Of a stretch of DNA of 64,000 bases, positions 1,215 to 60,936 are shown piece by piece. Made by a program: the position numbers and the translations under genes. Positions within the stretch are counted from its first letter, which is position 1. Each line of letters starts with the position of its first letter. This stretch comes from Diphasiastrum complanatum. Taxonomy: Eukaryota; Streptophyta; Lycopodiopsida; Lycopodiales; Lycopodiaceae. Under the pieces are notes generated by a model. It did not search any database and was not told where the DNA came from. It was given only the letters and a program-made list of their open reading frames with translations. The stretch is from NCBI GenBank assembly GCA_029204225.1, contig CM055108.1, forward strand, positions 21,996,326-22,060,325, written 5' to 3'.

Positions 1215-1258
1215 CCCCTCTTTCTCTCTCTCTCTATCTCTCTCTCGTACCTTCGAAG

Positions 1259-1713
1259 TCGCTTATTGGCACGGGAGGGGGAGTAATGCCCGCTCCCGTG
1301 CTTTTGCAACACGTGGTTGGGCTGCATGGTGCCCATCAAAAATCAAGGTGCTCAAATTTTTCGTGGGCGACAAGCGTGACATGGTCCCGGGCAGCGCAGG
1401 TGGTGCCGGGAAGCCCAGTCTCGGGCTGCGCGAGTGGCGCCAGGCAGCCACAACGGGTGGTCCTAGGCTGCACAGGTGGTGTTGGGCAGGCAGGCAGGTA
1501 GGCAGGAGGCGCCAGGCACTAGCACGCCCAGGAGCACACACACATGAGGTGTTGGGAGAGATTGGCTATATATTGCCTCCGGGAAATCTCAGAAAAATGC
1601 TTATGGGATAAATGAGGGTTATGGGCAGCACAGTGGGCAGGAGCGGATTATCTCTGGGACACGTGGCGATAAGGCACTGGGGCGTGCGTAATCGTACCCG
1701 TCCCAATAAGAGA
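1259..1713. mobile_element. GC-rich TIR-bounded insertion carrying a promoter-like repeat
   Basis: A 455-bp GC-rich block present in unit A but absent at the same place in unit B (around 43780-43840). Its ends are imperfect inverted repeats, tcgcttattggcacggg at 1259-1275 and cccgtcccaataagaga at 1697-1713 (15 of 17 pairs match), which suggests a MITE-like insertion. Inside, on the minus strand, a CACGTG G-box (1660-1665), a GATAATCC box, a TATATAT (1566-1572) and a long GC-rich leader follow in order. All of these align with the promoter and leader of the YLMG1-like gene at 27990-28260. No clean target duplication is visible. The open frames here are compositional and I do not call a gene. 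Confidence 0.6.
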
Positions 1714-2036
1714 CCAGGTCCTACCTTGAGTGAATTTTAGCCTCTCAAGGAGGAATTTAGCACATAGATGCTTCGCTACCCAGGGCATGTACCCGCACGG
1801 GTGTACATCAACAAGCCCTTGCCTAGGAATCATCGCAGAATCTTTGAATTTAGAGCCTTGTCTTACTTGGTAGACATTGGAAATTTGCCAAGTGGCATGG
1901 CTAATGTGAATGTCTCAGAGAAGAGAAGAGAAGCGGGTCTCAACATAAATTGAGCCATGAAGCACCATATGCAAGTGAGCTGTTGCATGTAGAGGAGGAA
2001 GAAGAAGCAGCAGTTGAAGAAGATCAACTACTGATC

Positions 2037-2585
2037 ATGGATTATTCAACCTCAATATTTGCTCTTGTTATGATTTTTGGTCAGTTAGTATGCTTGCTTT
2101 TCGGAAGCGGCGGTACTGTTGCTGCTGCTGCTGAATCTGTGCCTTCAATGTCGTCGTTGGAGCTGCGCCAATTAGGCTCTTCTGGTGATCAAAATGGTTT
2201 TGAGCAGCATGCTGCCCAACAACCAAACGTAGGTATATCCAGCTGTGGCACAGACCACTTTCAGTACTTTTGCCAAGGAGACCTGACGATCAATCCTAAA
2301 ACAATCCAGGACCATTTACATTCTCTGGCAAACTCTGTCCCCACTCACCCCAAATCGCACGCACCAATCACCAAGGACGGCCTGCTAACCGCTTTCTTAC
2401 CAGGTCACATAAACACGCCCAATCCATTCCCTTCGTCTCGTTCGCAACTGAACTGCTGCGTCAAAGTTGTTCAACAGCGGTGTCTACAAAACAAGAAGGC
2501 AACTGGATTATGCTCAGGTTACAATACCGCTTGGGCTTTCGGATATTCTCAAGACAAGGCGTATAGCCTACCCAATGGACAGTAG
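2037..2585 (+). CDS. Small secreted cysteine-rich protein, copy 1 (unknown family)
   Basis: An intact frame of 182 residues. I chose ATG 2037 because the next codons form a signal peptide: a hydrophobic stretch at residues 6-22 (ALVMIFGQLVCLLF), then a small-residue region (TVAAAAES) suited to cleavage near residue 33. The same start is conserved in the copy at 44244, whereas in-frame upstream codons are not. The mature part has six cysteines (70, 79, 140, 141, 149, 159) in the pattern C-x8-C-x60-CC-x7-C-x9-C, which would suit three disulphides, and ends GYSQDKAYSLPNGQ. Between the second and third cysteines lies a proline- and histidine-rich stretch. I do not recognise the family; extracellular defence or cell-wall roles are possible but unproven. 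It differs from copy 2 at three residues (S39L, S48T, V144I). Confidence 0.8.
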   Translation: MDYSTSIFALVMIFGQLVCLLFGSGGTVAAAAESVPSMSSLELRQLGSSGDQNGFEQHAAQQPNVGISSCGTDHFQYFCQGDLTINPKTIQDHLHSLANSVPTHPKSHAPITKDGLLTAFLPGHINTPNPFPSSRSQLNCCVKVVQQRCLQNKKATGLCSGYNTAWAFGYSQDKAYSLPNGQ

Positions 2586-2608
2586 TACACATTTGTAAGA
2601 GTCGGACT

Positions 2609-2630
2609 AACCATGATATATATCATGGTT
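2609..2630. other. 22-bp perfect palindrome in the 3' UTR
   Basis: The half-site AACCATGATAT is followed directly by its exact reverse complement, 23 bases after the stop codon of copy 1. The same perfect palindrome sits at the same distance in copy 2 (44816-44837). It could form a hairpin in the mRNA 3' end or be a dimeric protein site. Confidence 0.7.
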
Positions 2631-3221
2631 TGAAGTAAGCAGCCAGTCATGCAGTGATGTGACAAAGTACATGCATGATCTACATCGTTGAAGTAGAAAT
2701 CTAAACAAAAGTTCTGTGCTTTCTTTGGAGTTTCTGAATTAGTAGTCAGTCATCTAAGTTGCTAGCCGGCGTCCTTCAATTGTATGTCTTCCAATAAGTG
2801 GTGAGATTGTTTTGTTGGGACTTCCTTTTCTGTACCTGATATAGGTGGAAGGACTTACACTATAACCCGCTGCATGAATGAGCAAATGCTTGTATGAGTG
2901 TGTAAGATGTAAGCAAAGTTATGTGATGAATATTTAAGTTTTTCAGCTGATCTCATCCTAAGTTAACATTATTTCTCATTTCTGATGTTTGTTCATGTCA
3001 TTTATTATGTTGCAAGCATTCTGAATCTGTATGATTTGAAAGCTCCTTAGTGGGTGGGGCTTGCTAGAAACTTATGACTAGTTCCTAGATGGGAAAAACT
3101 TGGAGAATCCTCCACGCAATCTTTTAGATTGAAATACACATGACGAGGAGCCATGCAAGCTATGCAAACTAGGAACAAGGTGATTTATATACACATGTTA
3201 TCACAATAAGCTATGCTATAT
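2631..3221 (+). repeat. Unit A downstream segment
   Basis: The 3' flank of copy 1. It is collinear with 44838-45256 and 45646-45808 of unit B, which has a 389-bp insertion between the two parts. Homology stops at about 3221 (gctatat). No further gene is seen here. Confidence 0.8.
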
Positions 3222-5848: not shown

Positions 5849-6994
5849 GTGCAAACCATCTTGAATGGTTTAGGTGATGAGTTCACCAACTTAGTCCAAT
5901 CGTTTGCCATTCAAGACTCTCTTCCATCCATTGAAAAGTTGCACAATGTTCTTGTGGCCGAGGAGAGTAGGCCTCTACACCTCAAGACAAGAATGGATAG
6001 CATGTCACTTAATGGAGGAGAGGAGAAAGCTAACTTTACATCTAAAGACAAGAAGAAGCAAAATCAAGGCAAGGAGGCCGAGATGAAGAGTGGAGGATCT
6101 ACCTCCAAAGGCAAAGTGAAGAACAAGGCAAAACTAAAGTGTTTCTTTTGTGGAAAGAAAGGACACTTTGCCTCAAAATGCTACTTGAAGAAGAATCAAC
6201 AAGCCAAAGGAGATCAAGGGAACATTGCTCAAGAGAAAGAAGAAGAGGATGTATTCAACACATCCTTAATGGTTGCATCTACACCAACTTCAAGTCAAGA
6301 CACATGGTGGATAGATAGTGGGGCTAGTTCCCACATGTCCTTTAACAAACATTATTTTTCTACTCTTCTCCATTGTAATGACTCTAAGAAGTCAATATAC
6401 ACTACTAGTGATCAAGCATGCAAGATAGATGGCATAGGATCTATACCTCTTTGCTTAGGCACATCTAAAAGGATAGATCTAGATAATGTTTTGTATGTTC
6501 CTACCATTTCAAGAAACTTGCTTAGTGTAGGACAATTAATGGACAATGGACTAGATGTACATTTCAAGAATGGAGTTTGTTCCATCTTGAAAAATGATAA
6601 GTGCATAGCTAGTGGCATTAAGCGAGGTAGACTTTTCAAGTTAGATGCTAATGTTGCAAGTGAAAGTGTGAACTTGGCTAGGGAGGAGCTAACTCAAGTG
6701 GAGCTTTGGCATAAGAGATTAGGCCATCCTAATCTTAAATCTATGGAGTCAATGGCAAGCAAGGAACTAGCTCTCGGCCTACCAAGAGCTTTCAAGAAGT
6801 GTGGAAAGATGTGTGAGGCATGTGGCTTTGCAAAGTCACACAAGTCTTCTTACAAGAGATCTTCATCAAGATCTCTCTCTCCCTTGGATCTCATACATTC
6901 TGATGTACATAGTTTTTCACATGCAAGTAATGGAGGTGCCTTGATGTATGTAGCTTTTATAGATGATTGTACTAGATTCACATGGATTGAGTAA
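5849..6994 (+). pseudogene. Copia Gag-protease-integrase N-terminal part
   Basis: A 381-residue open stretch. Visible in order: the end of the Gag capsid-like region (LNGLGDEFTNLVQSFAIQD), a CCHC knuckle CFFCGKKGHFASKC (residues about 99-112), an aspartic protease core WWIDSGASSHM (about 153-163), the GAG-pre-integrase motif LWHKRLGHPN (about 286-295) and the start of the integrase core with its first catalytic Asp in LIHSDVH. It begins inside Gag because the element is truncated, and it ends at a TAA inside integrase that should not be there. The element's protein should continue for about 800 more residues. Confidence 0.85.
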
Positions 6995-9368
6995 CTATCA
7001 AAGAAAAGTCTTGTTTATGAAGCTTTCATTAAGTTCAAGTCTCTAGTAGAGAAACAACTTAGTACTTCTATCAAAGCACTAAGATGTGATAATGGAGGAG
7101 AGTACACCTCCAGTAAAATGAAAGACTTTTGTGAGATCAATGGTATTAAGTTACAATACACTTGTTCCTACACCCCTCAACAAAATGGAGTGGTTAAGAG
7201 GAAAAATAGGAGTCTATGTGAGTGTGCAAAGTCTTTGAGACTTGATGCATCACTCCCCATCTCATTTTGGGGAGAAGCCATAACATGTGCTAATTACTTG
7301 TGTAATAGACTTCCTAGTAGTGCTATAGATGGGATCTCACCTTATCAAGCCTTGTTTGATAAGAAACCCAATGTAAAAGATTTGAAGATCTTTGGATGTA
7401 TTTGTTATGTACACATTCCTTTGGAGACTAGAAGGAAAGAAGATGCTACCTCCTTCAAAGGACTCTTTGTTGGCTATGGAGAAAATAGCAAGGGATATAG
7501 GATGTATGATCCTACATCCAAGAAAGTAAAGGTAAGCAAGGATTTACTTTTTGATCAGTCACAATTTGCTAAGAGCTTGTCAAATGGATCTAACCCATTG
7601 TGCATTGAAGATCTTGACAAATCCGAGGAGGATCTTGTCAAACCCGAGAAGGATCATGACAAACCCGCAGATGGAGATTTGGATCCGAGTCAAAAGGGGC
7701 CGAGAAGATCATCAAGGAGCAAGGCCGGGCCCTCAAGGCTCACCTATGTGGACAAGAGAAAGCAAAAGGAAGACTCTACACCTTCTACCTCTTACTTCTT
7801 TTTAGCTACATTGCTTGAAGAACCATCATCTTTTGAAGAAGCATATAAATCTAAGTTTGGAGAGATGCAATGCAAGTAGAGTATGATGCATTAGAAGAGA
7901 ATCATACTTGAAATCTTGTAAATCTTCCAAGAGGAAAGAAACCACTTGCATGTAAGTGGATTTATAGAATTAAGTACAATCAAGATGGATCTATTAGTAA
8001 GTACAAAGCTAGGCTTGTTGCTAAGGGATTTCTTCAAATAAAAGGATTGGATTATGAAGAAACATTTGCACCTGTAGCTAAGCTTGTAACTATTAGATTA
8101 ATCATTTGCATTGCTACTTTGTTCAAATGGGATCTCTACCAAATGGATGTGACAAATGCCTTCTTAATGGCTTCTTAGAGGAGGAAATCTACATGATGCA
8201 ACCCGAGGGTTTCATCAAGGTTGGTGAGGAGCAAAAGGTGTGCTACTTAAGGAAGAGCCTATATGGCTTGAAGCAAGCACCTAGAGCTTGGTAATCTAGG
8301 TTGCATGATTTTCTCTATTCCCTTGGCTTTGTACTAAGTGCTTATGAACCTTCTTTATATTTCAAATGTAATGAAGGAAAGATCATCATTTTGGTTCTTT
8401 ATGTTGATGACTTCATTATAACAGGAAATGATGATGATGGCATAGGCAAAGTAAAAGTTGACTTATCTAGTGAGTTCAAGATGGTAGATCTAGGCTTCCT
8501 AAAGTTTATACTTTGGATAGAAGTGTCTAGAAGTTGCAATTGTACTTTCATAAGTCAATTTGAGTATGCTACTTCCATTCTTGAAAGATTTGGTATGAAA
8601 GATTGTAAGGGGATTGACACCCCTATGGAGCATGTTGTGAAAGCAACTAATGAAGGTGATGAAGCATCCTTTGAGGACATCACCCTCTTTAGGAAGCTTA
8701 TAGGCTCTCTAATATATTTGACCATCACTAGACCTCACTTAAGTTTTTGTGTAAGCAAGTTGAGTCAAAGTATGCAAGTTCCTTTAGTTCATCATTGAAA
8801 AAGTGCCAAGAGAGTACTTAGATATGTTTCTAGTACTAGATTTTTTGGCATACTTTATGAAGGATCTAACTTGCACTTGAGAGCCTACTCGAATTCAGAT
8901 TTTGCAGGTGACAAGATGGATAGGAAGTCCATTAGTGCATTTTCAACATTTCTTTGTGGATAAGTGATATCTTGGCTTTCCAAAAAGCAAGATACAATCT
9001 CACTATCTTCTTGTGAAGCTGAGCACAAGGCATTGACTTCAACAACCGAAGAGCTCCTATGGCTAAGAAGACTCTTGATGGAACTACATGTGCTAGAGGT
9101 CGAGGAGATCCCTTACATATTTTTTGACAATCAAGCTTCTCAACATATTGCTTCAAATCCTATCTTCCATGCTAGAACAAAGCATATTGAGATAGCTCAC
9201 CACTTTGTGAGGGAGAAGGTACAATCCAAGGAAGTGCAACTACATCATGTACCATCATCCAAATGCATAGCTGATATCTTAACCAAACCATTTTCCAAAG
9301 ATCCATTTTTTAAGTTAAGATATGCTCTTGGAATTGTAGATAGATGTACACTAGATTTGCCAAGTTAG
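6995..9368 (+). pseudogene. Copia integrase C-terminal, reverse transcriptase and RNase H
   Basis: Continues the polyprotein after the stop at 6992. The second integrase Asp is present (RCDNGGEY near 7085), but the third catalytic residue is Lys instead of Glu (NGVVKRKNR near 7190). RT motifs follow: [30 protein letters not shown] and the active site LYVDDF near 8400. RNase H shows SSCEAEH and the C-terminus ADILTKPF. At least four further stops break it (near 7908, 8294, 8799 and 8961). It was a replication polyprotein and is now non-functional. Confidence 0.85.
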
Positions 9369-9690
9369 AAGTGAGGAGGAGTGTTGAAAATTGTCACTTC
9401 TCACTTGACATTGGTTCATGTTAATATTGATCAAACATTAGAATATGTTGATGATCTGATTTCACACATGTGGAGCATGTTCCCACGTGTGAAAGGATGT
9501 ACTTTTCATGTTTGTATATATCCAAATTAATTTTGTATCATTCTAGTTAGTGTAAACATGAAGTGACTAGTTTTTAGTCAAGTTGACTAGTCACCTACAA
9601 ATTAGCTTTTCCATGCATGTGCATGAGTAAATGCTCACACATGGCAAGTGGATGTTCACACGTGTGTATAGAGTACTAGAAGATAAGAGT

Positions 9691-10110
9691 TGACCATTTT
9701 CCTTAGGTCCTATTTTGTAGGGAATATTCCTATATTCAAGGAGACTAGCTTTTTGGATTTTAGTCATATTCTAGAAGGTCAACTATTGGATAAGGATCAA
9801 GGATGGATCAAATGGATAGATCTGAGTGATGTGGCACTCTTCACATTGTGTTGTCTGTTACTATACTATTGTACTGATGACAAAGCTTTATCATCTTCAT
9901 ATGGATCTGTCACCAGAATATGCTCTACTCAGGACGAGAAATTCAAAGCAACCCAAATTGTCAACTTCTGATACTAGGTCCGATACAGGGAGGAAAAGCT
10001 AAAACATGTAGATTTATGGTCATCAGGAACATTGTATCCTATTGATCCATGTTCATTGCAACATCCAGATTTTCATTCGGTGAGTCAGTTAATAATCTAT
10101 GTGTCATAGT
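9691..10110. other. Unassigned spacer
   Basis: AT-rich sequence between the copia LTR and the first coding-like fragment of the next block. One 93-codon open stretch (9690-9971) has no recognisable motif. I see nothing else. Confidence 0.4.
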
Positions 10111-10133
10111 AAAAATGGCCTTTTGGGTTACCG

Positions 10134-10415
10134 TGAGAATTTGATGCTCTATGGGAATGCACATTCAATGCAAAGAATACATTATTCGGAAGAGGAATCA
10201 AGGAGAATATTACAAAGATGAAAACTTGTTTAGATGAAAATGAGATGCTCAAGGAGGAGATCCAAAGGTTGAAATCTTTTTTGCATCATTATACAACTAG
10301 TAATGATGAGATAAAAATTGCATTTCAATCCATGCGTATCTCATATTTGTCTCTTGTTAAAGATATGGATGTGCTCAACAGAAAGGTCCAAAGAAACAAG
10401 AGGAAAGACTGGTAA
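10134..10415 (+). pseudogene. Short coding-like fragment with coiled coil
   Basis: An open frame of about 90 residues, EFDALWECTFNAKN then ITKMKTCLDENEMLKEEIQR, ending RNKRKDW. The middle has heptad-like spacing of Leu/Ile and many charged residues, as in a coiled coil. I do not recognise a family. It lies at the edge of the block with transposase-like fragments and could be an exon of that element. Low certainty that it was ever translated. Confidence 0.25.
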
Positions 10416-10649
10416 ACAAGGATATATGTGATCTATCATCCAGAGGAGGTCATAGAAAAAGACGAATCCGTGCTGTTGATTTGCTTATTATATACTGTTG
10501 TGAATACTATGAGTGTCCTAATTTATGCTGACATTTTCATGAACATTATGTTTGAAATGCAGATCAGCATTGGTCGTTGAAGACCATCTGATGAGATTTC
10601 AATTGGAAACTCACTAGGCTGTATCTTGACTTCTAAATCTACGAAATCA

Positions 10650-11500
10650 ATGTTAAATAATAACAAAATGAAAAAGATTAAGGCTTCAATTACTGATAGC
10701 ATTATGGACAACACATCCTCTAATTAGGAAATAGCTTCCTTTATAGAGGCCTCTAGCTCGGAAGTCCATGAAAACAAGATGTGAAGATATATTATTTTTT
10801 CTATAATATGCACCTCCGCATGCAATGTACAGATATGAACATTTCGTAGAGGAATCGGTAGTACAGGTTTCCAATTAGGATCTTCTTGATCTCTTTATAT
10901 TCATGTACTCCTTGTCATGTCTTTTGCTGTTTTCATGTAGTAGTACAAACAAGGGTGTTTAGAGTTAGCGCCAAGAGATACATTGAACATACATTTCAAT
11001 GTCTTCAGATCTCCTGCTAAATGCCATTCAATGTTAAAAGTGCCAAATCCAAGAATATTGAGTGGATCTCCCTCCATGTGATTTTTTATGGTGGTAGGAT
11101 ATGATGTTCTACTAAATATCCATGAGAGAATGTTATGGTCTTCTTTCAGCACCTATAAGAGAACACAAAAACGTGATTAGCCTCATATTAACACAAAGAA
11201 GATTTTAGATATGAAATCCATATTCAAATGATTATCCCTATTTATTATGCGAAGGAACTGCTATACCTAAAATGCTGCCAACCACCAGATATCATTTTCT
11301 GATTGAACACTAAAATTGAGGCCTTCTGAGTCTTCTGAATTTGAAAGTGCTCCATTCATGATTGTGAGACTGACTCTTTCCATTTTTTGTCCTTTTATAA
11401 TTTCAGACTCATCTAACTTGAGAACAACTATCAACTTGTTATTGACATTCTCATTTGTAATACCGTAAAAATTTATGATGAATGTTAATTAATGTCAATA
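10650..11500 (-). pseudogene. Unknown transposase-like gene, middle part
   Basis: Two exon-like pieces on the minus strand. The upstream piece (about 11275-11450) ends ENDIWWLAAF plus TAG, directly before a GTATAG donor. The downstream piece starts at 11151 after a CTTATAG acceptor: VLKEDHNILSWIFSR, then FNIEWHLAGDLKTLKCMF, then a Cys-containing NSKHPCLYYY. After two stops it goes on as NWKPVLPIPLRNVHICTLHA near 10840. The relic at 3250-4260 has the same exons and intron; there the residue before the intron is CAG (Gln), so the TAG here is likely a CAG-to-TAG change. I read it as a transposase-like protein of an unfamiliar family; function is inferred only from its repeat nature. Confidence 0.5.
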
Positions 11501-11502
11501 AA

Positions 11503-11854
11503 TAAATTGTTGGAATTGTTATATGCTGGACTCTCTCCTTTCGAGCAATACATTTCATTGATATGAGATGGATTACCAACTATTGTCTGCATACCATGGT
11601 TTAACATGTCTCTTTTTTTTTAAAGATGAAATGGTCGTGGGACTGGAAACTTGTTGATATACTATGCAAATGTTTCCTTTATCATCTTAAACATTGTTGC
11701 ATATGCTTCCCTACTGATGCTAGAAAAGTCACATGCTCCCTAAAGCAATGTAGTATCTAATATTTTTCCAACTTAAGCAGGCTTATATAAAGGCCATGTT
11801 AAAATAAAAAAAGATGACAAGCTATCAGGTAAAATATTCCATGCAAGTTGAGCA
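11503..11854. other. Unassigned spacer between oppositely oriented fragments
   Basis: AT-rich sequence without coding signal. It separates the minus-strand middle part from the plus-strand C-terminal part of what seems to be the same protein family, so an inversion breakpoint or nested insertion edge may lie here. Confidence 0.35.
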
Positions 11855-12464
11855 TTGGAGGATCTAAACCTCGAAGATTTTTATCAAACTATTAAACAAT
11901 CTAAGGTTCAATACACGGTTTGGAAAGAAATTATTGCAGCAACTCAAGATTTCGAAGAAAAAGGTTCTACTCGTATACACAAAGTAGAAGTTTGGAAAAA
12001 GTTAGACAACATGGTGAAATACTTGAGAAAAGATAAATTTTCAAATACTGATGTTCAAATGATACAGAAAACAACCAATGAATTTGTGGATGCAGTTCAA
12101 AGTGCATGGGGTGTTGATCATATAACACATTATATGGTAAGACTTTGATTTTACACTACGATAGACAAATATGTGCAATTAAATTAGATACTTTTGGTAC
12201 TGATTTAGATTATGTTTTTATGACATGCAGCACATATTACGACATCATTCGACATTCTTTGCAAGAAATAGTGGAAGTCTTAGCATATGGTCATCGCAAA
12301 GAATGGAAAAATCTCATTGGCAAGCAAGAGCGGCATTTCATAAAAGTACACAACATGGCAGGACTAGCACAAAAAACAGCTATGTACTGCAACTTTTCCA
12401 ATGGTTTTACAAAAGAATCCAAATTCGTCATAATACAAAATCGACAGATTATAAAATTTTTTAA
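11855..12464 (+). pseudogene. Transposase-like gene, C-terminal part with one intact intron
   Basis: Exon 1 (11855-12135) ends ...AWGVDHITHYM at a GTAAGA donor. The intron (12136-12230) ends in ATGCAG. Exon 2 (12231-12464) continues in frame: HILRHHSTFFARNSGSLS, then IWSSQRMEKSHWQARAAF and LFQWFYKR, and stops at TAA. Joined, this gives about 170 residues without a stop. The pattern of WG-x-D-x-x-T-x-Y-M, followed by an 'SxxxMEKSHxQAR' stretch, resembles the C-terminus of uncharacterised transposon proteins I remember, but I cannot name the family. It lies on the opposite strand from the middle part at 10650-11500, and the N-terminal part is missing. Confidence 0.5.
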
Positions 12465-12560
12465 AAAGCATGCAAATTTATACAAGCCAATAGGCTATAG
12501 ACACACAATAAAATTTTGTATATTAAATACAAATATTTACAAAGTACAATTCAACAGTAT

Positions 12561-13700
12561 CTAATCTGCTTCCGATATTTTTTCCAATGAAAGTTGCAAC
12601 TTAGAATCATGCAACAATTTTCTTCTTTCATATGGATCCAATAGCTCATAGTTTGCATGCTCACTCAGATCAACGTAAGCAGCATACACTGCAAAATGAG
12701 ATGATCTGAGCATGGAATTCACTGGTCCATATCCTAGAATTTTAACCGCAATAGTTTTCCTTACAAAAATTATTTTATGCACCTTATTGAAATTATGTCC
12801 TCCAAGAAAATGAGACAGTGCCTTGATTGCCATAATCATAGTTTCACCATGTTGATGAAACTTTGAATGGGCAACACTTATCTCATTACTCTTGAAGGAC
12901 TTCAGATAGTGCCCCAGTGCATGATCTCTTGAACATTCTCCAGCAGAAGATCTCTGCCCTCCTCGACAAATTGCGAAATCATCAAGGAAAATTGTTTCCT
13001 AAAATGATAAAAAACAAAGTCAGCTCCAGTATATAATCTGACATAACAAATCTACTAGTACTTGATAAGAGACAAAAACTTACGCATTCGGCTTTGTGTT
13101 CTCTGATTACTATCTCTCCGTCAATATTATGTCCACCTTTTGATGTCAATATTGTTGGTGAATAGACAGTTGGCTATGGAAAACCAAGTTGACTTTGAAT
13201 TCTAAGAAACTCCTCCTCAGAAGGTAGATCATCTTCTTTGTTGTGCATTTCCTCCACAGCCATTTTCAAGCAATCTTTCCTTGAATAAAACTTATCATTA
13301 TGTACATCGTCAACACTAGGGAGAAGATCATCAGCATATCAATTATATCCGAAAATTCATCAAGCTCTTTGTTCAAAATGCAAAGAGTCTCAGCTTCAGT
13401 GAAGTTAAAAAGATCCGATCAATCTGATATTGTCAAAAAGAAACTATTATCTATATTATAAGCAAGCAAAGTGATCAAAGATTTATCAGAAGGAGAAAGG
13501 GTAGTGGGTGTTCCAGGGCCTATAAAAGTAGTCCTATTTTGAGCAGGATCAAAATCAGAACAATCATCTAAATTAACACTCGTATCAATAAAAAAAATAT
13601 CTATATTTACAATCTTTGACTTTTCAGCTTTTGTACCACTAGAAGAAGCTGTTTCAGAAGTGGAGGGCACAGTTTTCGAATCGTCAAAAATATTTAACAA
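12561..13700 (-). pseudogene. Unknown minus-strand gene, divergent partner of the H3/Ulp1 region
   Basis: Reading down the minus strand: a Ser/Thr/Asp-rich N-terminal stretch (13700-13419), a TGA, then NFTEAETLCILNKELDEF, a one-base frameshift near 13340, then DDLLPSVDDVHNDKFYSR and EEEFLRIQSQLGFP with a TAG, then NIDGEIVIREHKAEC to a GTAAGT donor at about 13082. A TTTTAG acceptor joins in frame at about 12998 to ETIFLDDFAICRGGQR, HALGHYLKSFKSNE, and a C-terminus ending LSLEKISEAD at 12561. The last exon (about 145 residues) is uninterrupted. I recognise no domain. It converges tail-to-tail with the fragment at 11855-12464. It begins downstream of the bidirectional promoter, so it may be one of two genes of a mobile unit. 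Confidence 0.45.
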
Positions 13701-14343
13701 AAAAAAAAAAAAAAAAGCAAACTAAAAATCAACAAATCTACATTTTTTATTATGAATTGGGCACTCATCTACAGACTTGAAATCATTATGTAACTTGGTA
13801 AACATTCTATCAAACTTAGCTTTATAGATATGCTTGTCGAGTGTCACCAAGTCTTGATAATGAATCATGTCCTTATTTTGAGATTTGAATAGAGGAGTAC
13901 TGACACCAGGGCCCTCAGTTATAGAAGGTAGAATAAAAAGAAAAGGAAAAAAAGAGATTTGAATTAGTCCAACCTATCAGTAATACCAAATTCATTAAAA
14001 AAAGAAAACAAACTGGATTTAAAATTAGACATTTTAAACCAAAATAACAGAACTAAAGTTCCAAATATCGCTCTTAGACACAAACCGCAGGTCAGACAAG
14101 CACGTCAAGGCAACGTGCGCTCGAGAGAGATATTTGAAGTTGGAGTATTGGATCTGAGCACAAGAACACCGAGCAGAGAAGAAAAGGGATGTGAAGCGCG
14201 CTTGAATGCGATACCGGACGATGCAGTATCAGATCCAGGTGCATAATAGTCAACGAAAGGTAATGAGAGCAAGCGGTGCGCTTGAAATCGATATCCGAAA
14301 AAGCAATCATAAATTTGCATGAAAATCCGAGCCGAAAAAGACC
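13701..14343 (-). other. Leader region of the minus-strand gene
   Basis: Sequence between the presumed minus-strand TATA box and the first coding stretch. It holds a poly-A run (13701-13718 on the plus strand) and two short open frames (14092-14392) with no recognisable motif. An intron or untranslated leader would explain it. Confidence 0.35.
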
Positions 14344-14622
14344 TATTTATAAAAAACAAATTTGCACGTGTGGAGGAGCGTTGAAGGAACACGTCTCGAA
14401 TTGTGATTGGTTAAAATAAATGCGTCATACCGAGAATGATTGATCTGACATTTGTCACGTGCAAGAATGACACACATCAATATCAGATTTGCGCATGTAT
14501 CTCAGCCCACGTTGCCTCATAATTGGGTCATCATTGTCAATACGGACATTCCACGTGGATTAATAATCTAACAACACGTGTTTTTGTCATCTTTTCACAC
14601 GTGCAAAAATTTCGTATATATA
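14344..14622. promoter_or_regulatory. Compact bidirectional promoter with repeated ACGTG boxes
   Basis: Two TATA boxes face away from each other: TATAAATA on the minus strand (14344-14352) and TATATATA on the plus strand (14615-14622), about 260 bp apart. Between them lie at least five ACGTG-type cores (near 14365, 14456, 14552, 14572, 14598) plus ACGT half-sites at 14391 and 14509. These resemble plant bZIP/bHLH G-box or ABRE sites. Reading regions start on each side at sensible distances (H3-like ATG at 14933; minus-strand gene from 13700). Function is inferred from arrangement. Confidence 0.55.
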
Positions 14623-14932
14623 AGTTCTCGGAATTTTTTATTTTTTTGCAAAATTTTCGCCTTTAGCTCCCGATATTGCTCCCAAGTGTGCTCTTTTACT
14701 GTTCAAGCTTTCGCCCTCTCACAGTGCGCTTGAGTCCGATACCGCTGGTTGTTCAATATCACTTTCGAACTCGCATCTCTTTTCTTCAAATAATTTGTCT
14801 AGATCTTGTGCTCAAAACCGATATTCAGTTCTGGTATCGATCTCAAGCGCCCTTTCATCGCAAATTTTTTTGTTTTCATCCACTTTTGTTTTGTTCAAAC
14901 TTCTTCTTGTTAATTTTCTTCTTCTGAGAATG

Positions 14933-15568
14933 ATGGCCTGAACCAAATCCACTACCCGTGCTATCACCACTGTACAGCCATCCCATTCCCATGTTCCCTC
15001 TGGTATTAGCCATAGGTGTGGCACGAAGCAGGTCTGGCTGAGAGAGATCAGAAAACTCCAGAGATCAATTGAATTGTTGATCCCTAGAGTTCCTTTCGGC
15101 CGATCTGTTCAAAATGTCACTCTGTCACTTGGGCTAAATGTTCGTTTTGCCATAACAGCCACGTAGGCCTTACAGGGTGTTGCAGAAGATTTTTTGTCCC
15201 AGCTTTTTGAGGATACTTGTCTTTTGGCAATGCATGGTAAGCATGTCACCATCATGCCAAAGGATTTCGTCATTCTCAAGAGGCTTCGGGACAGATATTA
15301 TGGTCTGCATGTTGATAATGCCAGCACCTCCAAAGACCTGCCTCTGGATAGAACCCACGTGCCTACTACCTCTAGGAGGAAGAGAAAGCAGTCTGTCCCC
15401 AAGAAGGTTAGATCTCGGCGAAGGCCAGCTGCTTCCCTTCCTCCTAACCGTATCCCGGCCAAGAGACCCTTTGTCTTCCTGGGCTCTGAGTCAGATGCTG
15501 GAGAATCTGACTCAGATCGAGAATCTTCACCTCTTTCTCCTCCTGTTAATCGTGTAGCTCCTCAGTAG
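14933..15568 (+). pseudogene. Histone H3-like domain with long C-terminal extension
   Basis: From ATG 14933 the frame begins like histone H3 (M-A-stop-T-K-S-T), has a short divergent tail, then a complete H3 fold: WLREIRKLQRSIELLIP (residues 35-51), VPFGRSVQ (53-60), ALQGVAEDFL (79-88), LFEDTCLLAMHGKHV (91-105), TIMPKDF (106-112), RLRDRYYG. It aligns to canonical H3 over about 88 residues with no gap and roughly half identity by eye. Loop 1 has normal H3 length, unlike plant CENH3, although LLIP and PKDF are CENH3-like. Instead of ending there it continues about 90 residues through a Ser/Arg-rich stretch (TSRRKRKQ, SRRRPAASLPPN) and an acidic stretch (GSESDAGESDSDRESSP). Three in-frame stops (TGA 14939, TAG 15164, TAG 15566) break it. 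After the last stop the frame stays open (VSSPKVLITQEELDKIAEKS), so it may once have run into the protease downstream. No introns are seen in the histone part. Confidence 0.7.
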
Positions 15569-15619
15569 GTTTCATCACCAAAAGTGTTGATTACCCAAGA
15601 GGAGCTAGACAAAATAGCA

Positions 15620-17048
15620 GAGAAATCTCTATATATTGTTTCACTTCTGTTTTTGCTCCTGTACATAATCTTTTTGTGAGAATTCCATACGATCCAGTCC
15701 AGATTTTTTTTATTCTGACCATTATAATCAATATGAGGCCTCCCTAGTTAACAAAATTGATCTTTTCGGCAACTTTTTTGATTTTTTTCTTCCAGATACA
15801 TGTAGAAGCTTTAGATTAGGTCCCAAATTTTGTGCCATGCTAAAAGATAAGACCTCAAAAATTTCAAATGCAATAATAGAGGCCGGAGTTTTTTTTTTTG
15901 CAGAATAGTATTAGTTTCGATTCCCATGGTACAGTTTTTGTAGTTAGTCCATTTTTCATGGGAGTGGTAAAGGCGAAAGAAGCCAATTTTGAGAAGGTTG
16001 TCTATTTCATCGAGTGCAGTCCTATGGCAAAATTCTATTTGATTCCATATGAAAATAAGTAAGGATTGCTCTTTTGTTTTTGTTGTCTTAACCTGGATTG
16101 TTGCATGCTTCATTGCTTTAATAAGAACACAATTTTTTCATAAATATGAATTTATCCATATTTGTATTTTGGTTCTTGCAGTCGGCATTGGAGCTTGAAC
16201 ATTCTTTTTGTAAAGATAAATAAGGAGGGAGTATCAAATTTTCTATGTGTAAAATTAAACTCAACTGCAAATACACATAGAGAATTTGATTCTTTACTTC
16301 ATGATGTCGTTCGAAAAATACCAACAACGACAACTTCAATTGGAGAGATAACCATTAAATCTCTCAAGGTATATTCTCTGATATGCATGTATTCCTTTTT
16401 TAATTCAAATGTATCATCATAGTATAAATAAAATTTCTATCATTATATTACTAATTCTCATTCCATATATGTAGTGTGTACAACAACAAGATATTTTTAG
16501 TTGTGCATGGTTCATCTTGTACAATACGAAGCTATTTTTTGAATGGTATAATTTACAAACGGATGTAGATATTGAAAAGGTAATATTCTATTCATTTGTA
16601 GTTCATTTCATTCTGATTCATATTTTATATGCATTGTTTGTAATTTGCTGATTCTCGTGTTTTGTGATAACAGTTCACTCTTGAACTGTATACTCCTTAT
16701 GATGTATATAGATTTCGGCAAGAGTTGATCAAAACCTATGCCCAGTACGGTGTAAGCGTTGCACCTGCAATCGAGGGCCCTCAAAAGGAAGCTGCTCCTG
16801 TCTTAACAGCCTTTCAAGTTGTTCAGGATGCAGATCTTATTTTATATGATCAAAAAGAAATAAAAGTCCTTCATAATACAGAGGAAGGCAATTTTGCAAC
16901 AGATATTTCTCTTGTCTTAAAAGGCATCGAGCCCCTTCTCGAAACAGAGGAGGGTGAGATTATAGAAGGAGCTATTGCCTTATCACTTCCTAATACTGAT
17001 ATAGAAAATATAGAAAAATTGACTGAATATAAATCTATTTGTAAATAG
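15620..17048 (+). pseudogene. Ulp1/SENP-like (C48) cysteine protease, spliced, partly frameshifted
   Basis: Pieces in order: VHNLFVRIPYDPVQ and YEASLVNKIDLFGNFF (15650-15790); KTSKISNAIIEAG (to 15887); a poly-T run; then four exons that splice in frame: 15904-16058 (VVSPFFMGVVKAKE, FYLIPYEN; donor GTAAGG), 16182-16368 (RHWSLNILFVK; donor after CTCAAG), 16475-16579 (CVQQQDIFSCAWFILY), 16674-17048 (FTLELYTPYDVYRFRQ..., stop). This matches the C48 layout: 'IPxxxxxHW' with the catalytic His, then Gln and catalytic Cys in QQQDIFSCAW. The usual catalytic Asp after the His strand appears as Asn (VKLNST). Proteases of this family cleave SUMO-like conjugates and are often carried by plant DNA transposons. 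Two poly-T frame slips (near 15705 and 15890) and a shift near 15635 make it a probable pseudogene. Its frame lines up behind the H3-like domain, so a fusion is possible. Confidence 0.65.
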
Positions 17049-17458
17049 AGAGACATAAAAAAAAAAAAAAAGATACAATCATTTTACTTGTAAACAACCC
17101 GTTTATGGATTTTTTTTATTGATATCACAATAGATTCTTACAATCAGCTTGTGTCCATAGTCTAATACTGGAATGCAATTTTTCTATAATGATAAAAAAA
17201 AAACTGTAGCATCTGGTGCAATCCATTCATCACTTTCAAAACTAGATAATGGAATTGGTACTATTTGTCCAAAATTTCCTTTTGTATCAGGAATGTGTTG
17301 GAGAGAGAGGGGGAGAATAATTTATGACAAACACGAACGAGAAACAAACTCGAACAAGAAATGAACGAGAAACAAACTCGAATAGAAAATGTTTGTGCAC
17401 AGCGGAATGAACTATACGACTCTCTCCGTAAGCATAACTATGCCTATCAGAATGATAG
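17049..17458. other. Unassigned spacer
   Basis: AT-rich sequence with poly-A after the protease stop. A short direct repeat (acgagaaacaaactcgaa, twice, 17338-17382) precedes the copia LTR fragment. No gene seen. Confidence 0.4.
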
Positions 17459-18140
17459 GACTTTAGTGATAGAAATCATGGTCGTTCTAGATTACACATA
17501 GCCAAACATTAGTAGATGAAGCGCCAGAAGAATAATTTGTCGCAAATAGCAAGACAAATTATATGTCGCGAAGAGCTAGACTGTGCTCGACTGATAATTA
17601 GTCGCGAATGATTCACGATAAACAAGACTAAATATTAATCGTCTATTACCAGTAAGAACAACTAGAAAGATCAGATAGAATAAATGATAAGCATAACAAT
17701 ATTAACATAGATCTGAACGCAGAACCCTGAACTGTATCAGATTAAGTATATCATGTATACATGTCAATAATGTGGTAGAGCACAATACAGTACTGGACGA
17801 AACCGCATGTCCTACAAAGCTTATTTCAATTTGTAAAAAGCAATTAAACCTTAATTCTGACAAGAATGAAGAATCAATGCTCAAGGCATCTACTTCGTTT
17901 ATGTCGTCTTCTTCTGCTCTCTTCATCATCTTTTACACGAATGGTGTCCAGTATATATATATACTACATAATATTACAGGTGTGCTGTGCATTCTACTAT
18001 TCCTTGTGCTGAGCTGGTTTCTGGTTTGGCTTCGACTGCTTTGAGTCTTTCTTCTTCTTCTGCTTTGTCATGCCCTTATTGGTGTACAAGGCATAAAAAT
18101 TAGCTGAGGAACTCGAGGCTTCGTTCCTTCGCGTGTCTTC
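17459..18140 (-). mobile_element. Copia LTR fragment joined to a Gag relic
   Basis: 17459-17986 is a partial copy of the LTR at 4669-5505 (shared landmark ccagaagaataatttgtcgc near 17522). On its right, minus-strand translation reads NEASSSSANFYALYTNKG and a Lys-rich tail, the Gag region just before the zinc knuckle of copia. All the polyprotein between them is gone, so this is an internally deleted element. Confidence 0.65.
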
Positions 18141-19051
18141 TGTGAAAGTACTGTACTTTAGGACCATAAATGGATCTACAAAAGATCCACAAGAGTGATT
18201 GGATGCTTGCTTAACAATCTATCAAAAAACTAGACACAAAAAAGTTGATCTAGATTGGCAATTTGACAAACAACAAGCATTAAAAATCAAAAGCATTGAT
18301 AAAAATTGAAATCCGAGCCCACACGTGTGTACTACAGGCTGTAGTATGGCCTTCAACTTGAGAAACAAATAGAAATTGATTTGGTTTCATTTGGATCACA
18401 AAAACTCAATGTACATAGTGAACTAGCTTGAGATTGCCAATGAGCTCCAAAAATTTTCTATCTTCTCACTATGGAGAGAGGGAATACATAGCAAATTCGA
18501 CTTCCTTCTTGAAGTTAGGTGGATTTCCAACATGTAATAAGGAAGTTAACTCACTCTCCTTGACCTAAAATGAAACCCTAGTCTATTTCCTAGAGTTATG
18601 CTTGGTAGGTAGCTAGTTGTTCAAATTTTCACCTTAAACTTAGGTGTAGGTCCTATAAAGTAGGGATGACCACCAAATAGACATGACCAACTCTCTTGAC
18701 TTGACTTAACCTACATTAGGATGGGTTTCCCATGTAGCATCATGGCCTCACATGTGTGGGACCCAATTGTGTACACAATTTACACTATTCTACATGGTTT
18801 TTGATCAAGCTAGATTTGCCAATTTTTGACAATTCTTCACACTCCTCCTCAAATTTAGATTGATCTATTTACAACTCTCTTGATAGATCAATGAAAGCTT
18901 TTAGAAGTGTCTAAAAAATCCAGCTACAAAAAAGGAACTTTTGAGATTCTAATAGAGAATGATGTCCATGAAGGATCTTTCACCACCTCTTAGAGGATCC
19001 CTTACAAGATGTTCCATAAATGTGTCTATATACATGTAGCACACTTCAAAA

Positions 19052-20152
19052 CTAAACATCATGCCAAGCCATGGATTCCAAGGCATTTTGTGCACTTGAA
19101 GATACATCAATGAAAATATTAAGTGAATAAATAATGTTGCCAAAGACAACTTTTCTTGCTTGATCCATATGATTGAGCCTAGATGGCTCCATCTTGATAC
19201 TCAAGATTCTTCTTGGAGTCCTCGGGTCTTGAGCTTGATCCTCCACTTGACTTGACTCCAAAACATCAATGAATTGAATAATGTGTTGATCCAAAGGTGC
19301 TTCTTCAAGTTTACAAATCTTCCACTCTTGAAAGATCACATTTCCACCATTGACAAATGCTTTGGTTAAAAACAAGTAGATTCTACAATCTCTACTTGAA
19401 GAGCAAAACACTACCATTATTCCTATCATTGAAATAGGATAATCTTTGGTCCTTACATTGGAATGATCATGCACAAAGCATGTGGACACAAAGATTTCCA
19501 AAGCAAATGATGTTTCATCTTTTATGACTCTATTCAAACTATTACAAAAATAGTTATCCAATGAAATTGCTTTATCAACAACAAATGTAAATTTCAAAGC
19601 ATCCCATTTCATTGTCTTGTCATACAAAGTAATAAACACCATGGATCTTAAAGGTAAGAAACAAGTCACCTCATGTCTACTAATACTTTCCAAAAAGTAT
19701 TCAAAGATAGTAGACTCTCCAATGCTCACCACCCTTGCAAGATGCACACTTGAATGGACAATTTGCATGCAATTTGATGACTCGGCCATTGTCATTGAGG
19801 ACTCCCTTGGAACTCTCATGCTTTGAGGCTGATCCTCAATATCTTCCTCCTTTTGATGCTCCTCCTCAATGCAAGCAAGATCACACTTTTCCAAGATCTC
19901 CTTTTAAGTGATCTCCTCATTTGCCAAGCTCATTCTTTCAAAAGCAACACTAGCTTCCAACTTAAACAATCTTCCATGCTTAAATCCCTTTGCAATGCAA
20001 ACATTATTCTTCAAGATGAAACAAACACCATGCTTAAAGTGGACATCCAACCCACTTTCTAAGAGTAAACCAACACTAAACATATTCTTGGTGATTGATG
20101 GTACATAAAGGACATTTTCTAGATCCATGCATTTTGAGGATTCTAGACACAA
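19052..20152 (-). pseudogene. Copia GAG-pre-integrase and degenerate integrase remnant
   Basis: The first part (20152-19904) is a clear GAG-pre-integrase region (MDLENVLYVPSITKNMFSVG). The second (19894-19052, 280 residues open) is strongly diverged but still tracks copia integrase: WDALKFTFVVDKAISLDNYF corresponds to the 'PISFWGEAITCANYL' region, and GIMVVFCSSSRDCRIYL to the 'GLFVGYGENSKGYRMY' region of the element at 7118. The catalytic core is missing. The end, VFGNIIYSLNIFIDVSSS, has no RT motif. An open frame kept after loss of the catalytic parts is unusual and may be chance or selection on a shortened protein. Confidence 0.6.
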
Positions 20153-20172
20153 AGAGATGGTGCCAACACCAT

Positions 20173-21223
20173 CTATCCTACACTCTTCATCATTTGCAGT
20201 AAAGACAAGCTTTTAGCAGCATTGAAAGAGTGTAAGGTTGAGAAAAAGTCCTTTTCACAAGACATGTGAGAGCTAGCCCCACTGTCGATCCACCAATTGT
20301 CTCTTGAATTGCTATTGCTTGTTGGTGAGGATGTAGATGTCATCAAGGATACATCTACTTCATCCTCCTCCTCCTTTGCAAGGTTTCTGTGTTTGTCCTC
20401 CTCCACTTGTGCTCTTAGCCTCTTGTAGCATTCAGATGCATAATGCCCCTTCCTTCCACAAAAGAAGCATTTTTGCTTTAACTTGTCCTTTGAGCTTGAT
20501 GCATCATCCTCTTCTTTGGCCTCCTTTGGATGCTTCTTCTTTCCATTGGTCTTCTTTTTGCCCTTGAATGAGAAATTGGCTTTCTCATCACCATCTTGCA
20601 ATGACAAGGAACTCATCCTAGATTTTGCATGGAGCATCCTACACTCTTCAGCCACTAATACACTGTGAAGTTTTTCTGTAGTTGGCAAAGTGTCTTGGAT
20701 GGCAAAACTTTGGACCAAATTTGCAAAGTCATCTCCTAGACCATTAAGGACAATTTGTACAAGCTCTCCATCATGAATCTTCTCTCCAATGGAAGCCAAC
20801 TCCCTATTTAGAGACTTGATTCTGAGTACATAATCCTGTGCACTCTCCTCACTTCTCCTCATGCTTTGCAAAATTTGATTTCTAAGCATAAGAACTCTAG
20901 AAGTGCTGCTAGACTCATAGATTGATTTTAAAGACTCCCAAGCCTCTTTAGCATTAGTACAAGCTGATACTTCTCTCAACAAATCATTGCTCACATTCAT
21001 CTTCACACAATGAAGTGCAAGCCTAGATCTCTTCTTTAGCTAACTCCTGTGCACCTAGAGGTTCATCTTCATCTTCAATCAAGAACTCATAAAGGTCTTG
21101 GAGCACTAAGAGTGAATCCATTCTAACCTTCCAAATAGCATAATTTGTAGAATTCAACCTCTCACTAGCTTCTAGAAGGTATGCTCCAGCAGATCCCATC
21201 TTACTAGTGACTTCTACAAACAA
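20173..21223 (-). pseudogene. Copia Gag with zinc knuckle and protease core
   Basis: Begins at 21223 with an N-terminal Gag stretch (LNSTNYAIWKVRMDSLL), is broken near 21020, and resumes at 21006: LREVSACTNAKEAWESL, LNGLGDDFANLVQSFAIQD, then CCHC CFFCGRKGHYASEC and the protease WWIDSGASSHM. About 340 residues in total, normal for copia Gag plus protease start. It closely resembles the Gag at 5849. The frame break at the join and one before the GAG-pre-integrase part prevent a full product. Confidence 0.8.
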
Positions 21224-22643
21224 GAAATAGATTTGATTGACTTGAAACTCACAAAGGTCTCACACTTGCAGTGTTTCACTCAAATTTGATTTCTAATCCA
21301 ACAAATGGGCTTATAATCACAGTTCTATCACTCTCTCACAAAGCTGGAATGAAGATAAGATGAAATGAAAACTACTTTCAAACAAATCTTGCCAAGAAAT
21401 GGATTTGATTGTCTCTAGAAACTCACTAAGGTCTCTCTCTTGTAGTTTTTCACTCAAATTAGATTTCTAATCCAACAAATGGACTTATAATCTCAGTTCT
21501 AGCACTTCCTCACAAAGTTGGAATGAAGATAAGATGATGTGAAATCTACTTACAATCAAATCTTGCCAATTTTGGCTATTTTTGGACAAAAAAATGACTT
21601 AATCTCTTTCTTCCTTCTTGGTGTACTTTCAAGACCTGTTTTTAACCTTAATAGGACTTGAACTCAGCCTAGATTAATTAGATTCCATGAAATAAATTCA
21701 AATCTAATCAATGGCAAATGATCTTGGTAGATTATCCCAGGATCTCCACCAAAAATTACACCAACAGCTCACAAATTGAATTTTTTTGGATCAAATGAAT
21801 ACCATGCATTAAATGCAGGTTCAGAGGTGCCCACACATGTGGACAGTACGGATTTGGACCCCTACCAAGTTTGGGATCAAATCTCCTCACCAAAATCAAG
21901 ATTCTAGCTTGCCCTCTCAATACTAGTTTTTAGCACCGAAACTTGCTAAAAATGGATTTGCATTAGATCAATGGCTTATGCTCTTGTACTTGGCTCTGAT
22001 ACCATGTGAAAGTACTGTACTTTAGGACCATAAATGGATCTACAAAAGATCCACAAGAGTGATTGGATGCTTGCTTAACAATCTATCAAAAAACTAGACA
22101 CAAAAAAGTTGATCTAGATTGGCAATTTGACAAACAACAAGCATTAACAATCAAAAGCATTGATAAACATTGAAATCCGAGCCCACACGTGTGTACTACA
22201 GGCTGTAGTATGGCCTTCAACCTGAGAAACAAGTAGAAATTGATTTGGTTTCATTTGGATCACAAAAACTCAATGTACATAGTGAACTAGCTTGAGATTG
22301 CCAATGAGCTCCAAAAATTTTCTATCTTCTCTATGGAGAGAGGGAATACATAGCAAATTCGACTTCCTTCTTGAAGTTAGGTGGATTTCAGCATGTAATA
22401 AGGAAGTTAACTCACTCTCCTTGACCTAAAATGAAACCCTAGTCTATTTCCTAGAGTTATGCTTGGTAGGTAGCTAGTTGGTCAAATTTTCACCTTAAAC
22501 TTAGGTGTAGGTCCTATAAAGTAGGGATGACCACCAAATAGACATGACCAACTCTCTTGACTTGACCTAACCTACATTAGGATGGGTTTCCCATGTAGCA
22601 TCATTCCTTACAAATGGCCTTAGGATAAGATTTACAAGGTGCC

Positions 22644-42864: not shown

Positions 42865-43850
42865 TGATTGTTTGCTATTATAGCATGTGCATAGGTTTCA
42901 AGATTGAGGAATTGAGTCGTTGGGCCTTGGCAAGGATATGTGTAAAGTCTTAATGTGATTAATAGTGATCGGTATTCAACACTATATCAACAAAAATTCC
43001 TTCATACCCCATCTTGGCCGCTCTTATGTTTGTAAGATGTATTGTATGCATATCATTGTCCTTTGCATTCATGCCAATACATGCTTGCTCAATGACATGT
43101 TGATTGTCATTTGGATTGAGAACTAAATAACGTGCATTCCCAAGGCATATATGATGGAAATTATCTATGAGTCTACTTGTCCACAACAAGACATAGTTTG
43201 CATAACATGCCACGACAAACAAAATCAAGCATAATATGAGTCATGCAAATCTTGCCAAAAAGGTTGAAATTTTTCATCCAAGAGGGCTTCGTGCTATTTC
43301 TAAATTTTGCCCAAGAGAGCTCCATATGTTTAGAATAATATTAGAATGCATAATGGGGTTCCCATAATCAATCTCCATTGTCCAATCTTGTAAGATTTGA
43401 GTGGTGAATACATCATAATCGTATGTTTAAGTTACAGACAGTGTGCTAAGTGTGAATCTTATGGGAAATTTGTCATGTCATATTTTTTTCTTCTACAAAA
43501 GCTTTGGACTTGTGCCATTCTAAGCAATGCCATCCTAGTGCATTATGCCATTTATCCCTTTATCAAGTTTTCAAAAACTTGTGACATATTCACTTACGAG
43601 TACACATATTGTAGTAGGCAAAGTTCAAAGTCAAAACTTAGTATTTTATTAAGTATATTCAATTAATTTGTCGGGGACATGAATGAACATCTTTTTTTTT
43701 GGTTTTCTTGTGAAAAGAGCATTTTTCAAAGATTGTGCATGCACCCAAAAACGGTTTCCTCTCCCTCTCTCTCTCCACAAAATATCAGCTTTTGGCGGAG
43801 AAGTGGAGGTTGATTTTTCCAACATCGAACCTTGAGTGAGTGAATTTTAG
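42865..43850 (+). repeat. Unit B upstream segment of the duplication
   Basis: Collinear with 283-1214 and 1726-1800 of unit A, lacking the 455-bp GC-rich insertion. Left end truncated by the copia sequence. No gene. Confidence 0.85.
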
Positions 43851-44792: not shown

Positions 44793-44815
44793 TACACATT
44801 TGTAAGAGTCGGACT

Positions 44816-51624: not shown

Positions 51625-51699
<75 letters not shown>

Positions 51700-60713: not shown

Positions 60714-60746
<33 letters not shown>

Positions 60747-60886: not shown

Positions 60887-60936
<50 letters not shown>

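Follow-up and report, generated by a model that had tools for sequence, protein, structure and literature searches.

The histone H3-bearing block in the 64,000-nucleotide stretch of DNA that was analysed (the window) is well supported, by comparison with related copies, as the decayed remains of a DNA transposon with several genes, which measures 8-9 kb when complete and has the inverted ends CATTAG...CTAATG. The genes predicted for the element encode a transposase-like protein, a protein designated 'm' and a histone H3-like protein, and this assignment is also well supported. In two branches of the element, B1 and B2, the H3-like part is joined to a predicted protease domain of the Ulp1 type (C48), and the resulting gene shares with 'm' a spacer carrying branch-specific repeated motifs, again a well-supported prediction. 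The explanation as a whole, in which a multi-gene transposon bearing an H3-C48 fusion in B1 and B2 acts against silencing, is in our judgement moderately likely. The window copy belongs to branch B1 and has lost both ends. Its features are as follows.

9844-12464, + strand: remnant of the transposase-like gene (B1), best exons at about 11852-12136 and 12231-12464
12561-13973, - strand: gene for protein 'm', several exons, divergent from the H3-C48 gene, read from open reading frames
14100-14860: spacer separating the two divergent genes; GCGCTTGARNNCGATAYC occurs at 14198, 14278 and 14726 (+) and at 14833 (-), and a degenerate copy at 14117
14615-14623, + strand: TATA-like TATATATAA, about 310 bases before the H3 start, read from the sequence
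14930-16058, + strand: first exon of the fused gene, covering the H3 tail, the H3 fold, the Ser/Arg-acidic linker and the N-terminal half of C48
15032-15295, + strand: histone H3 fold, from Pfam PF00125, PDB and alignment to host H3 and transposon branches
15296-15565, + strand: Ser/Arg and acidic linker, 90 codons open beyond the fold
16182-16368, + strand: C48 exon 2, with the histidine of HWSL at 16186-16188; splice borders aligned in 9 B1 sequences
16475-16579, + strand: C48 exon 3 (QQQD...SC), with the candidate oxyanion Gln and the candidate nucleophile Cys (16502-16504)
16674-17048, + strand: C48 exon 4 and stop, from the open reading frame list and the alignment of B1 splice borders
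17049-17296, + strand: 3' part of the element, which runs to 17198, resumes at 17201-17296 and is then cut off

The H3 part of the window copy

The first-pass annotation of this DNA, made from the letters alone, had described a full H3 fold without gaps over about 88 residues and, behind it, a long Ser/Arg and acidic extension, and both were recovered. The fold occupies 88 codons with one internal stop (15164). Translation of 14942-15565 with X in place of stops matched the Pfam Histone family with an E value of 1.4e-21, and the same translation matched H3 chains in PDB with an E value of 4.3e-21 over 96 residues without a gap. When the two halves of the H3 part were scored separately, they reached 30.2 and 35.9 bits, both above the Pfam cut-off of 26.4. 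The best 60 of the 176 PDB matches were all named H3 or H3 variants other than CENP-A. A Foldseek search was performed using a predicted model of the H3 part, which was weak overall (mean pLDDT 55.9) and reached 74-85 at residues 51-90; nucleosome, tetrasome or histone-octamer entries were obtained in all 50 matches listed. The first-pass annotation would have been refuted by profile searches that gave the H3 fold no support; these searches supported it. The window H3 also aligns to host H3 and to the other transposon branches. In the comparison with host H3, the alignment for which contained no CENH3, loop 1 had the host length in branches A, B1 and C and was one residue longer in B2. The loops of CENH3 are longer. 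Judged by its tail, in which K9 is missing, the H3 part is an H3-fold variant and not a canonical H3. The linker contains FVFLGSESDAGESDSD, which we take to resemble a SUMO-interacting motif.

The H3 frame of the window is interrupted by stops at its third codon (14939), within the fold (15164) and at 15566, and only the last of these had been named in the first-pass annotation. Because of the stops at 14939 and 15164, the window copy cannot make H3. More stops and a frame break are present in exon 1 past 15643.

The C48 protease part

Ulp1-like coding sequence was observed in the window from 15880 onward, and exons 2 to 4 are joined in frame with GT-AG borders. These borders are kept at introns 1 and 2 in all 9 aligned B1 sequences and at intron 3 in 8 of the 9, the donor having been lost in a copy at about 27.85 Mb of contig C8 (F33). 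The window C48 alone matched Pfam PF02902 with E values of 0.004-0.018 (15.3-17.4 bits), below the cut-off of 20.7. The C48 parts of all six aligned copies matched Pfam C48 at E up to 1, with a best E value of 1.7e-7, and a profile made from these six copies of two branches gave a single PDB match at E up to 1, which was yeast Ulp1 (E 0.03). A spliced C48 domain on the strand of H3, as first annotated, is thus borne out by the GT-AG exons and by the copies taken jointly.

In the six aligned rows the catalytic His and Gln were each present in six and the Cys in five, L024 having Tyr; beyond these rows, Arg replaces the catalytic His in L036 and Tyr replaces the Cys in L021. Tyr stands in place of the catalytic Cys in two of the three B2 copies in which exon 3 was found. 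The Asp of the Ulp1 triad was not clearly placed in the alignment, and that place was read as Asn. The sequence comparison identifies the domain behind the linker as a divergent C48 protease of the Ulp1 type, whose activity is putative.

Repeat family and joint occurrence of H3 and C48

The genome searched comprised 1.745 Gb in 5176 contigs. A histone search gave 6325 first-look candidates, the best 150 of which were scored; 153 matches resulted, and 150 of them were sorted by hand. The best 150 of the 153 consisted of 13 canonical H3, 3 partial matches and 134 divergent full cores, the last distributed over 23 large contigs (C1 to C23) and 13 small contigs, with 77 of the 134 having no stop inside the match. 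A DNA search with 14000-17300 yielded 4385 first-look candidates, and 40 loci including the window were scored. The main matches of the other 39 were 85-93% identical to the window. Because none of the 40 DNA loci lies within 5 kb of any of the 134 H3 cores, both lists are lower bounds.

The first-pass annotation had allowed that the H3-like and protease parts might prove never to occur together at other loci or in other species. In this genome, the H3 fold and both catalytic exons were found within a single match in 28 of the 39 scored relatives, and in 30 of the 39 when adjacent pieces were joined. It is therefore highly probable, as far as sequence comparison can tell, that H3 and C48 lie in one mobile unit. 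As a separate observation, an extra decayed pair of H3-like and C48-like sequences in the same order lies near the B1 copy L028, at 6551-6840 and 7538-7672 of that locus.

One fused gene or two

The frame had been described as open after the stop at 15566, which left a choice between one fused gene and two adjacent genes of a mobile unit. The frame is open past this stop, and in related copies the same frame is coding. F33 contains a single frame with one stop that runs from MMARTKSTAR through the fold and the linker into the N-terminal half of C48. L037 has one frame from H3 to C48, also with one stop; the H3-to-C48 frame of L028 is without a stop over 276 residues; and L024, a B2 copy with 32% identity to the query, has no stop over residues 22-376 of the query. 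Since a single frame covers H3, linker and protease in several relatives, one fused gene is the likeliest arrangement, and we consider it probable from these sequences that H3 and C48 form one gene; on the choice originally left, the relatives favour one fused gene, within a mobile unit. No whole intact H3-C48 gene was found in the 15 B copies examined (11 B1 and 4 B2). Stops or frame breaks are present in the fused frame of L030, L032, L034, L035, L036 and L038, and every fetched B1 copy is broken somewhere.

An alternative is that the H3-linker part and C48 are made separately, at least in part of B1, either from neighbouring genes or from one message interrupted by a stop. The place of the 15566 stop bears on this in both directions. 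A stop is found there in 5 of the 11 B1 sequences (the window, L030, L031, L036 and L037), one of which is a near-identical duplicate, L030 and L031 being the same over 6.2 kb and perhaps one locus assembled twice; a fall in G+C from 0.52 in the linker to 0.32 beyond it points the same way. On the other hand, a sense codon occupies the place in 6 of the 11 (F33, L028, L032, L034, L035 and L038), and a single frame leads from H3 to C48 in F33, L028 and L024. Separate production is on this evidence quite improbable. We read the site as part of one fused gene in which it decays often, and some of B1 may end after the linker or have a regulated stop at this place.

Ends, insertion sites and other genes of the element

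The branch A ends CATTAGGGCCCTTTTTGGACTCAAAAAGGGCC were found on both sides in L016, and with one or two mismatches in L011 and L012; the end-to-end lengths of these three copies are 7946, 8809 and 6404 bases. The window does not contain the end pattern of branch A. In B1, the left end is CATTAGASAAAATATGGGCCC (F33 and L028) and the right end is CATTAGAGAAACTTAGAG (F33, L030 and L037), so that the two ends agree over only about 11 bases. The element of F33 is about 9.0 kb long. Identity at the DNA level between the window and F33 is about 90-91% over 9844-10711 and 11795-17198; after 17198, about 750 bases are missing from the window in comparison with F33. The right end with the last 1.0 kb of the element, and the left 0.34 kb, gave no match in the whole window. 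Within 10705-11774, a portion of the transposase-like gene has the opposite orientation in the window to that in F33 and L032.

No duplicated base was seen at any of the four insertions that were set against uninterrupted relatives, one of these sites being strong. The clear site is that of L012, with 400 bases and a gapless junction, and its empty counterpart is the Copia in the window at about 9208. At the small element of L018 the join is clean, with a relative that differs by 75 bases, 13 bases away; the empty sites of L016 and L011 are weaker, resting on a 45-base match and a 75% match, respectively. The small element (L018 7323-8497, oriented) is 1.17 kb long, has branch A ends, lies inside Copia-like sequence and is likely to be a non-autonomous derivative. 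L012 and L026 (oriented) have an identical left flank and insertion point in Copia-like sequence and may have been copied together.

Exons homologous to those of the transposase-like gene are present in branch A, and C(2)C and H(4)H were recognised by eye in F33 and branch A. These exons, scanned singly, gave no convincing match to any Pfam family, and the structure model of one exon was poor (pLDDT 53.2). Protein 'm' was without a Pfam match. In the 10-kb stretches around 20 H3-like copies, 'm' was present in 17 and transposase-like exons in 14; no 'm' homologue was seen in L018, L024 or L027. A second C48 domain noticed by eye at about 10563 (+; DQHWSLKTI) was rejected; it lies inside the transposase-like gene of a related copy.

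Several known kinds of transposon were considered. The inverted ends led us to set Helitron aside. For hAT there was neither a Pfam match nor a duplication at the four sites, and for KDZ neither a Pfam match in the exons scanned singly nor a duplication. MULE (Vandal/KIU) gave no Pfam match in the element stretches scanned, and Polinton/Maverick no match to a type B DNA polymerase, integrase or ATPase. The element appears to be a DNA transposon of an as yet unclassified kind that makes no target-site duplication.

Motif arrays in the spacer

In the window spacer, five matches to GCGCTTGARNNCGATAYC were found at up to 3 mismatches, compared with 0.51 expected, and none of 100 shuffles reached five; the pattern was derived from the window itself. 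In the B1 spacers between 'm' and the H3-C48 gene, 4 to 9 sites were found at up to 2 mismatches in all 9 copies scanned, the near-duplicates L031 and L035 having been left out of the scan. GCGCTTGARNNCGATAYC was absent from all 7 A and B2 copies scanned. Another repeated motif, built on TATCGCACTTGTGCGCG and CGCACAGGTCCGATAYACC and partly spaced at 88-91 bases (a count without a shuffle control), was found in the B2 spacers of L021 and L022. Most of 14000-14613 is present twice, side by side, at 11 of the 40 loci.

H3 branches, constraint and tail

The H3-like genes fall into four diverged branches (A, B1, B2 and C), and the protease is found in B1 and B2 only. Twenty H3 loci, chosen from the histone matches without a stop, consisted of 14 of A, 4 of B2, 1 of B1 and 1 of C (L013); two pairs among those of A are near-identical (L014/L025 and L010/L017). 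No C48 match was obtained in any of the 14 branch A loci, three of which hold both ends. In a tree of 19 rows, B1 and B2 were grouped with support of 96/94 and A and C with 88/82, host H3 falling in between under a midpoint root; 3 of the 16 inner branches of this tree are well supported, and L013 has a long branch. The tree is compatible with a single origin of the H3 branches as well as with more than one.

Mean dN/dS within branches was 0.52 in A (28 pairs), 0.62 in B1 (21 pairs) and 0.20 in B2 (6 pairs). The values within B1 and within A are as would be expected of largely neutral copies. Between branches, dN/dS was 0.16-0.25 for pairs with finite dS, the dS values being near saturation; together with the B2 value, this speaks for constraint on H3.

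The first eight tail residues approximate ARTKQTAR in all branches, B2 having DRRKQTRR or DRRKQTKR. K4 is present in 29 of the 30 fetched copies, with Glu in L028. In contrast, K9 is present in none of the 30, compared with all four host genes examined. Of the 14 A copies, 12 have Asp and 2 have Gly at position 9, where the single C copy has Glu, all 11 B1 copies have Ala and all 4 B2 copies have Asp; in the C copy (L013), whose tail is 423 bases upstream of its fold, the two were assumed to be joined. As the tail diverges from residue 9 on, K9 may have gone simply because the tail was replaced. A branch A gene in L010 (2592-3845, oriented) encodes 417 amino acids, in which the start of an H3 tail and four kinds of stretch (Ser/Arg, Gln-rich, acidic and poly-Pro) precede the H3 fold; the Gln-rich and acidic stretches resemble an activation domain, by resemblance only.

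Proposed role and its alternatives

Plant transposon silencing rests largely on H3K9, and transposons carry enzymes that edit chromatin or DNA marks. An anti-silencing role is suggested by the H3 part, which has retained K4 but not K9, by its union with a Ulp1-type protease and by the motif arrays beside it. The fused protein would pair with host H4 and, deposited at copies of the element or recruited to them, would counter silencing. Nucleosomes containing the H3 part, with K4 and without K9, could not take H3K9 methylation, and the protease would remove SUMO or a related tag from chromatin or from the silencing factors of the host. Specificity would come from the motif array, in the manner of the VANC motifs of Vandal elements. 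We infer every step of this role, which we put forward tentatively as the likeliest and most economical one. Control of chromatin at or near the element had been suggested in the first-pass annotation, and the K9-less tail and the motif arrays now supply more specific hints for that idea.

A broader proposal, more speculative still, is that the element may represent an undescribed superfamily of DNA transposons with its own H3 variant as a standing gene. Its H3 would have kept the K4 end and discarded K9, and in one lineage would have been fused to a deSUMOylase-like protease; motif-directed nucleosomes could then not be marked by H3K9 silencing, and SUMO would be removed from silencing factors. 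If this is true, an element with its own K9-less histone would attack the substrate of silencing and not the enzyme. With such an element one could ask directly whether silencing requires H3K9 in the nucleosome itself, and one could study a natural fusion of H3 and protease.

Among the alternatives, passive capture survives best: the H3 and protease genes would have been picked up and would ride along without a role, as in RIP-inactivated fungal hAT elements. Capture of this kind is documented elsewhere, in the available excerpts of PMC3538342 and PMC6710886, and the breaks in all fetched B1 copies would be expected under it. However, four diverged branches have the H3, its dN/dS is below 1 both within B2 and between branches, all branches retain the tail start, and the splice borders are mostly kept. 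Passive capture is accordingly judged unlikely. It is far less plausible that the copies are pseudogenes of a host H3 variant or host H3-C48 gene scattered by other means. The fold is plainly H3 and the canonical H3 of the host is also multicopy (13 among the best 150 matches), but the inverted ends, the empty sites and the linked transposase-like exons do not fit a host gene, nor do at least 134 divergent full-core matches spread across 23 large contigs and 13 small ones. Hardest of all to credit is an endogenous virus or an element of the Polinton type: viral histones and Polinton proteases exist, and elements of either kind can carry histones or a protease of this clan, but a six-frame search of 9300-18200 at E up to 1 matched no polymerase, ATPase, integrase or capsid family, and none of those families was matched when the branch A exons were searched against Pfam.

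Comparison with known systems

In Dothideomycete fungi, hAT transposons with a captured H3 have been described (Pyrenophora H3L, in the excerpts of PMC3538342), and a hAT of Pseudocercospora fijiensis has 784 H3-like copies and 8-bp duplications (excerpts of PMC6710886). These elements are like the present one in that an H3-like gene lies between the inverted repeats of a DNA transposon and is multiplied with it. Unlike in the fungal elements, no hAT domain and no duplication were found in the present one, and its H3 forms four branches, two of which have C48 joined. Ulp1, SUMO and protease are not mentioned in the available part of PMC6710886, nor is Ulp1 in that of PMC3538342.

The KIU (Kaonashi) Vandal MULEs of plants have Ulp1-bearing VANC-type genes, the precise function of the domain being described as unknown in the excerpts of PMC13317346, and the same portion of this Vandal/KIU review does not mention 'histone'. 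VANC targets in Arabidopsis evolve through tandem repetition and are subfamily-specific, according to the available part of PMC5735166. KIU and the present element are alike in being plant DNA transposons with a Ulp1-type domain and in having family-specific non-coding motif arrays that grow by tandem repetition. They differ in that no MULE domain was found in the present element and in that its Ulp1 domain is joined to H3, whereas that of KIU is joined to VANC. Anti-silencing has been reported for the VANC of Vandal, whereas for the present element we only infer it.

Elements of the CMCT clade make 2-5 bp duplications and have C(2)C and H(3-4)H between the second D and the last E, as given in the excerpts of PMC12730594. 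The present element shares 5'-CA...TG-3' ends (CATTAG...CTAATG) and has C(2)C and H(4)H in its transposase-like protein; both motifs were seen by eye, the DDE core that would surround them is putative in its acidic residues, and the exon model had a pLDDT of 53.2. The element differs in having no Pfam match and no duplication at the four sites, one of them strong, and because no duplication was seen it does not fit the CMCT clade. KDZ elements (Kyakuja, Dileera and Zisupton) carry TET/JBP genes and so resemble the present element in bearing genes that act on chromatin or DNA marks; it differs from them in having no KDZ domain match and in that the Zisupton and Dileera examples make 8-bp duplications (excerpts of PMC12730594).

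Among the open-access papers listed by the literature search, which covered few subscription journals, and as far as their available parts go, there was no report of a plant transposon-borne histone or of an H3-Ulp1 fusion. This agrees with the earlier remark that no described plant element is known to carry H3 with a SUMO-type protease. Transposon-borne H3 (fungal hAT) and transposon-borne Ulp1 (plant Vandal) were each already known, and it is their joining that would be new.

Other sequences in the window

A young Copia-type element with LTRs of about 600 bases that are 98.3% identical lies at 18141-22604 (-). Stretches at 1-3221, 42865-45807 and 51453-52422 are duplicated with about 82-95% identity and contain an open reading frame of about 230-250 amino acids (1905-2585 and 44049-44792). 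An open reading frame at 61351-61848 (-) gave a weak match to the SWIM zinc finger (E 0.014, under the cut-off) and is perhaps the remnant of a MULE. Long CT/GA-rich tandem arrays that have 'GAACCGT'-type units in common occupy 60400-61050 and 63100-64000.
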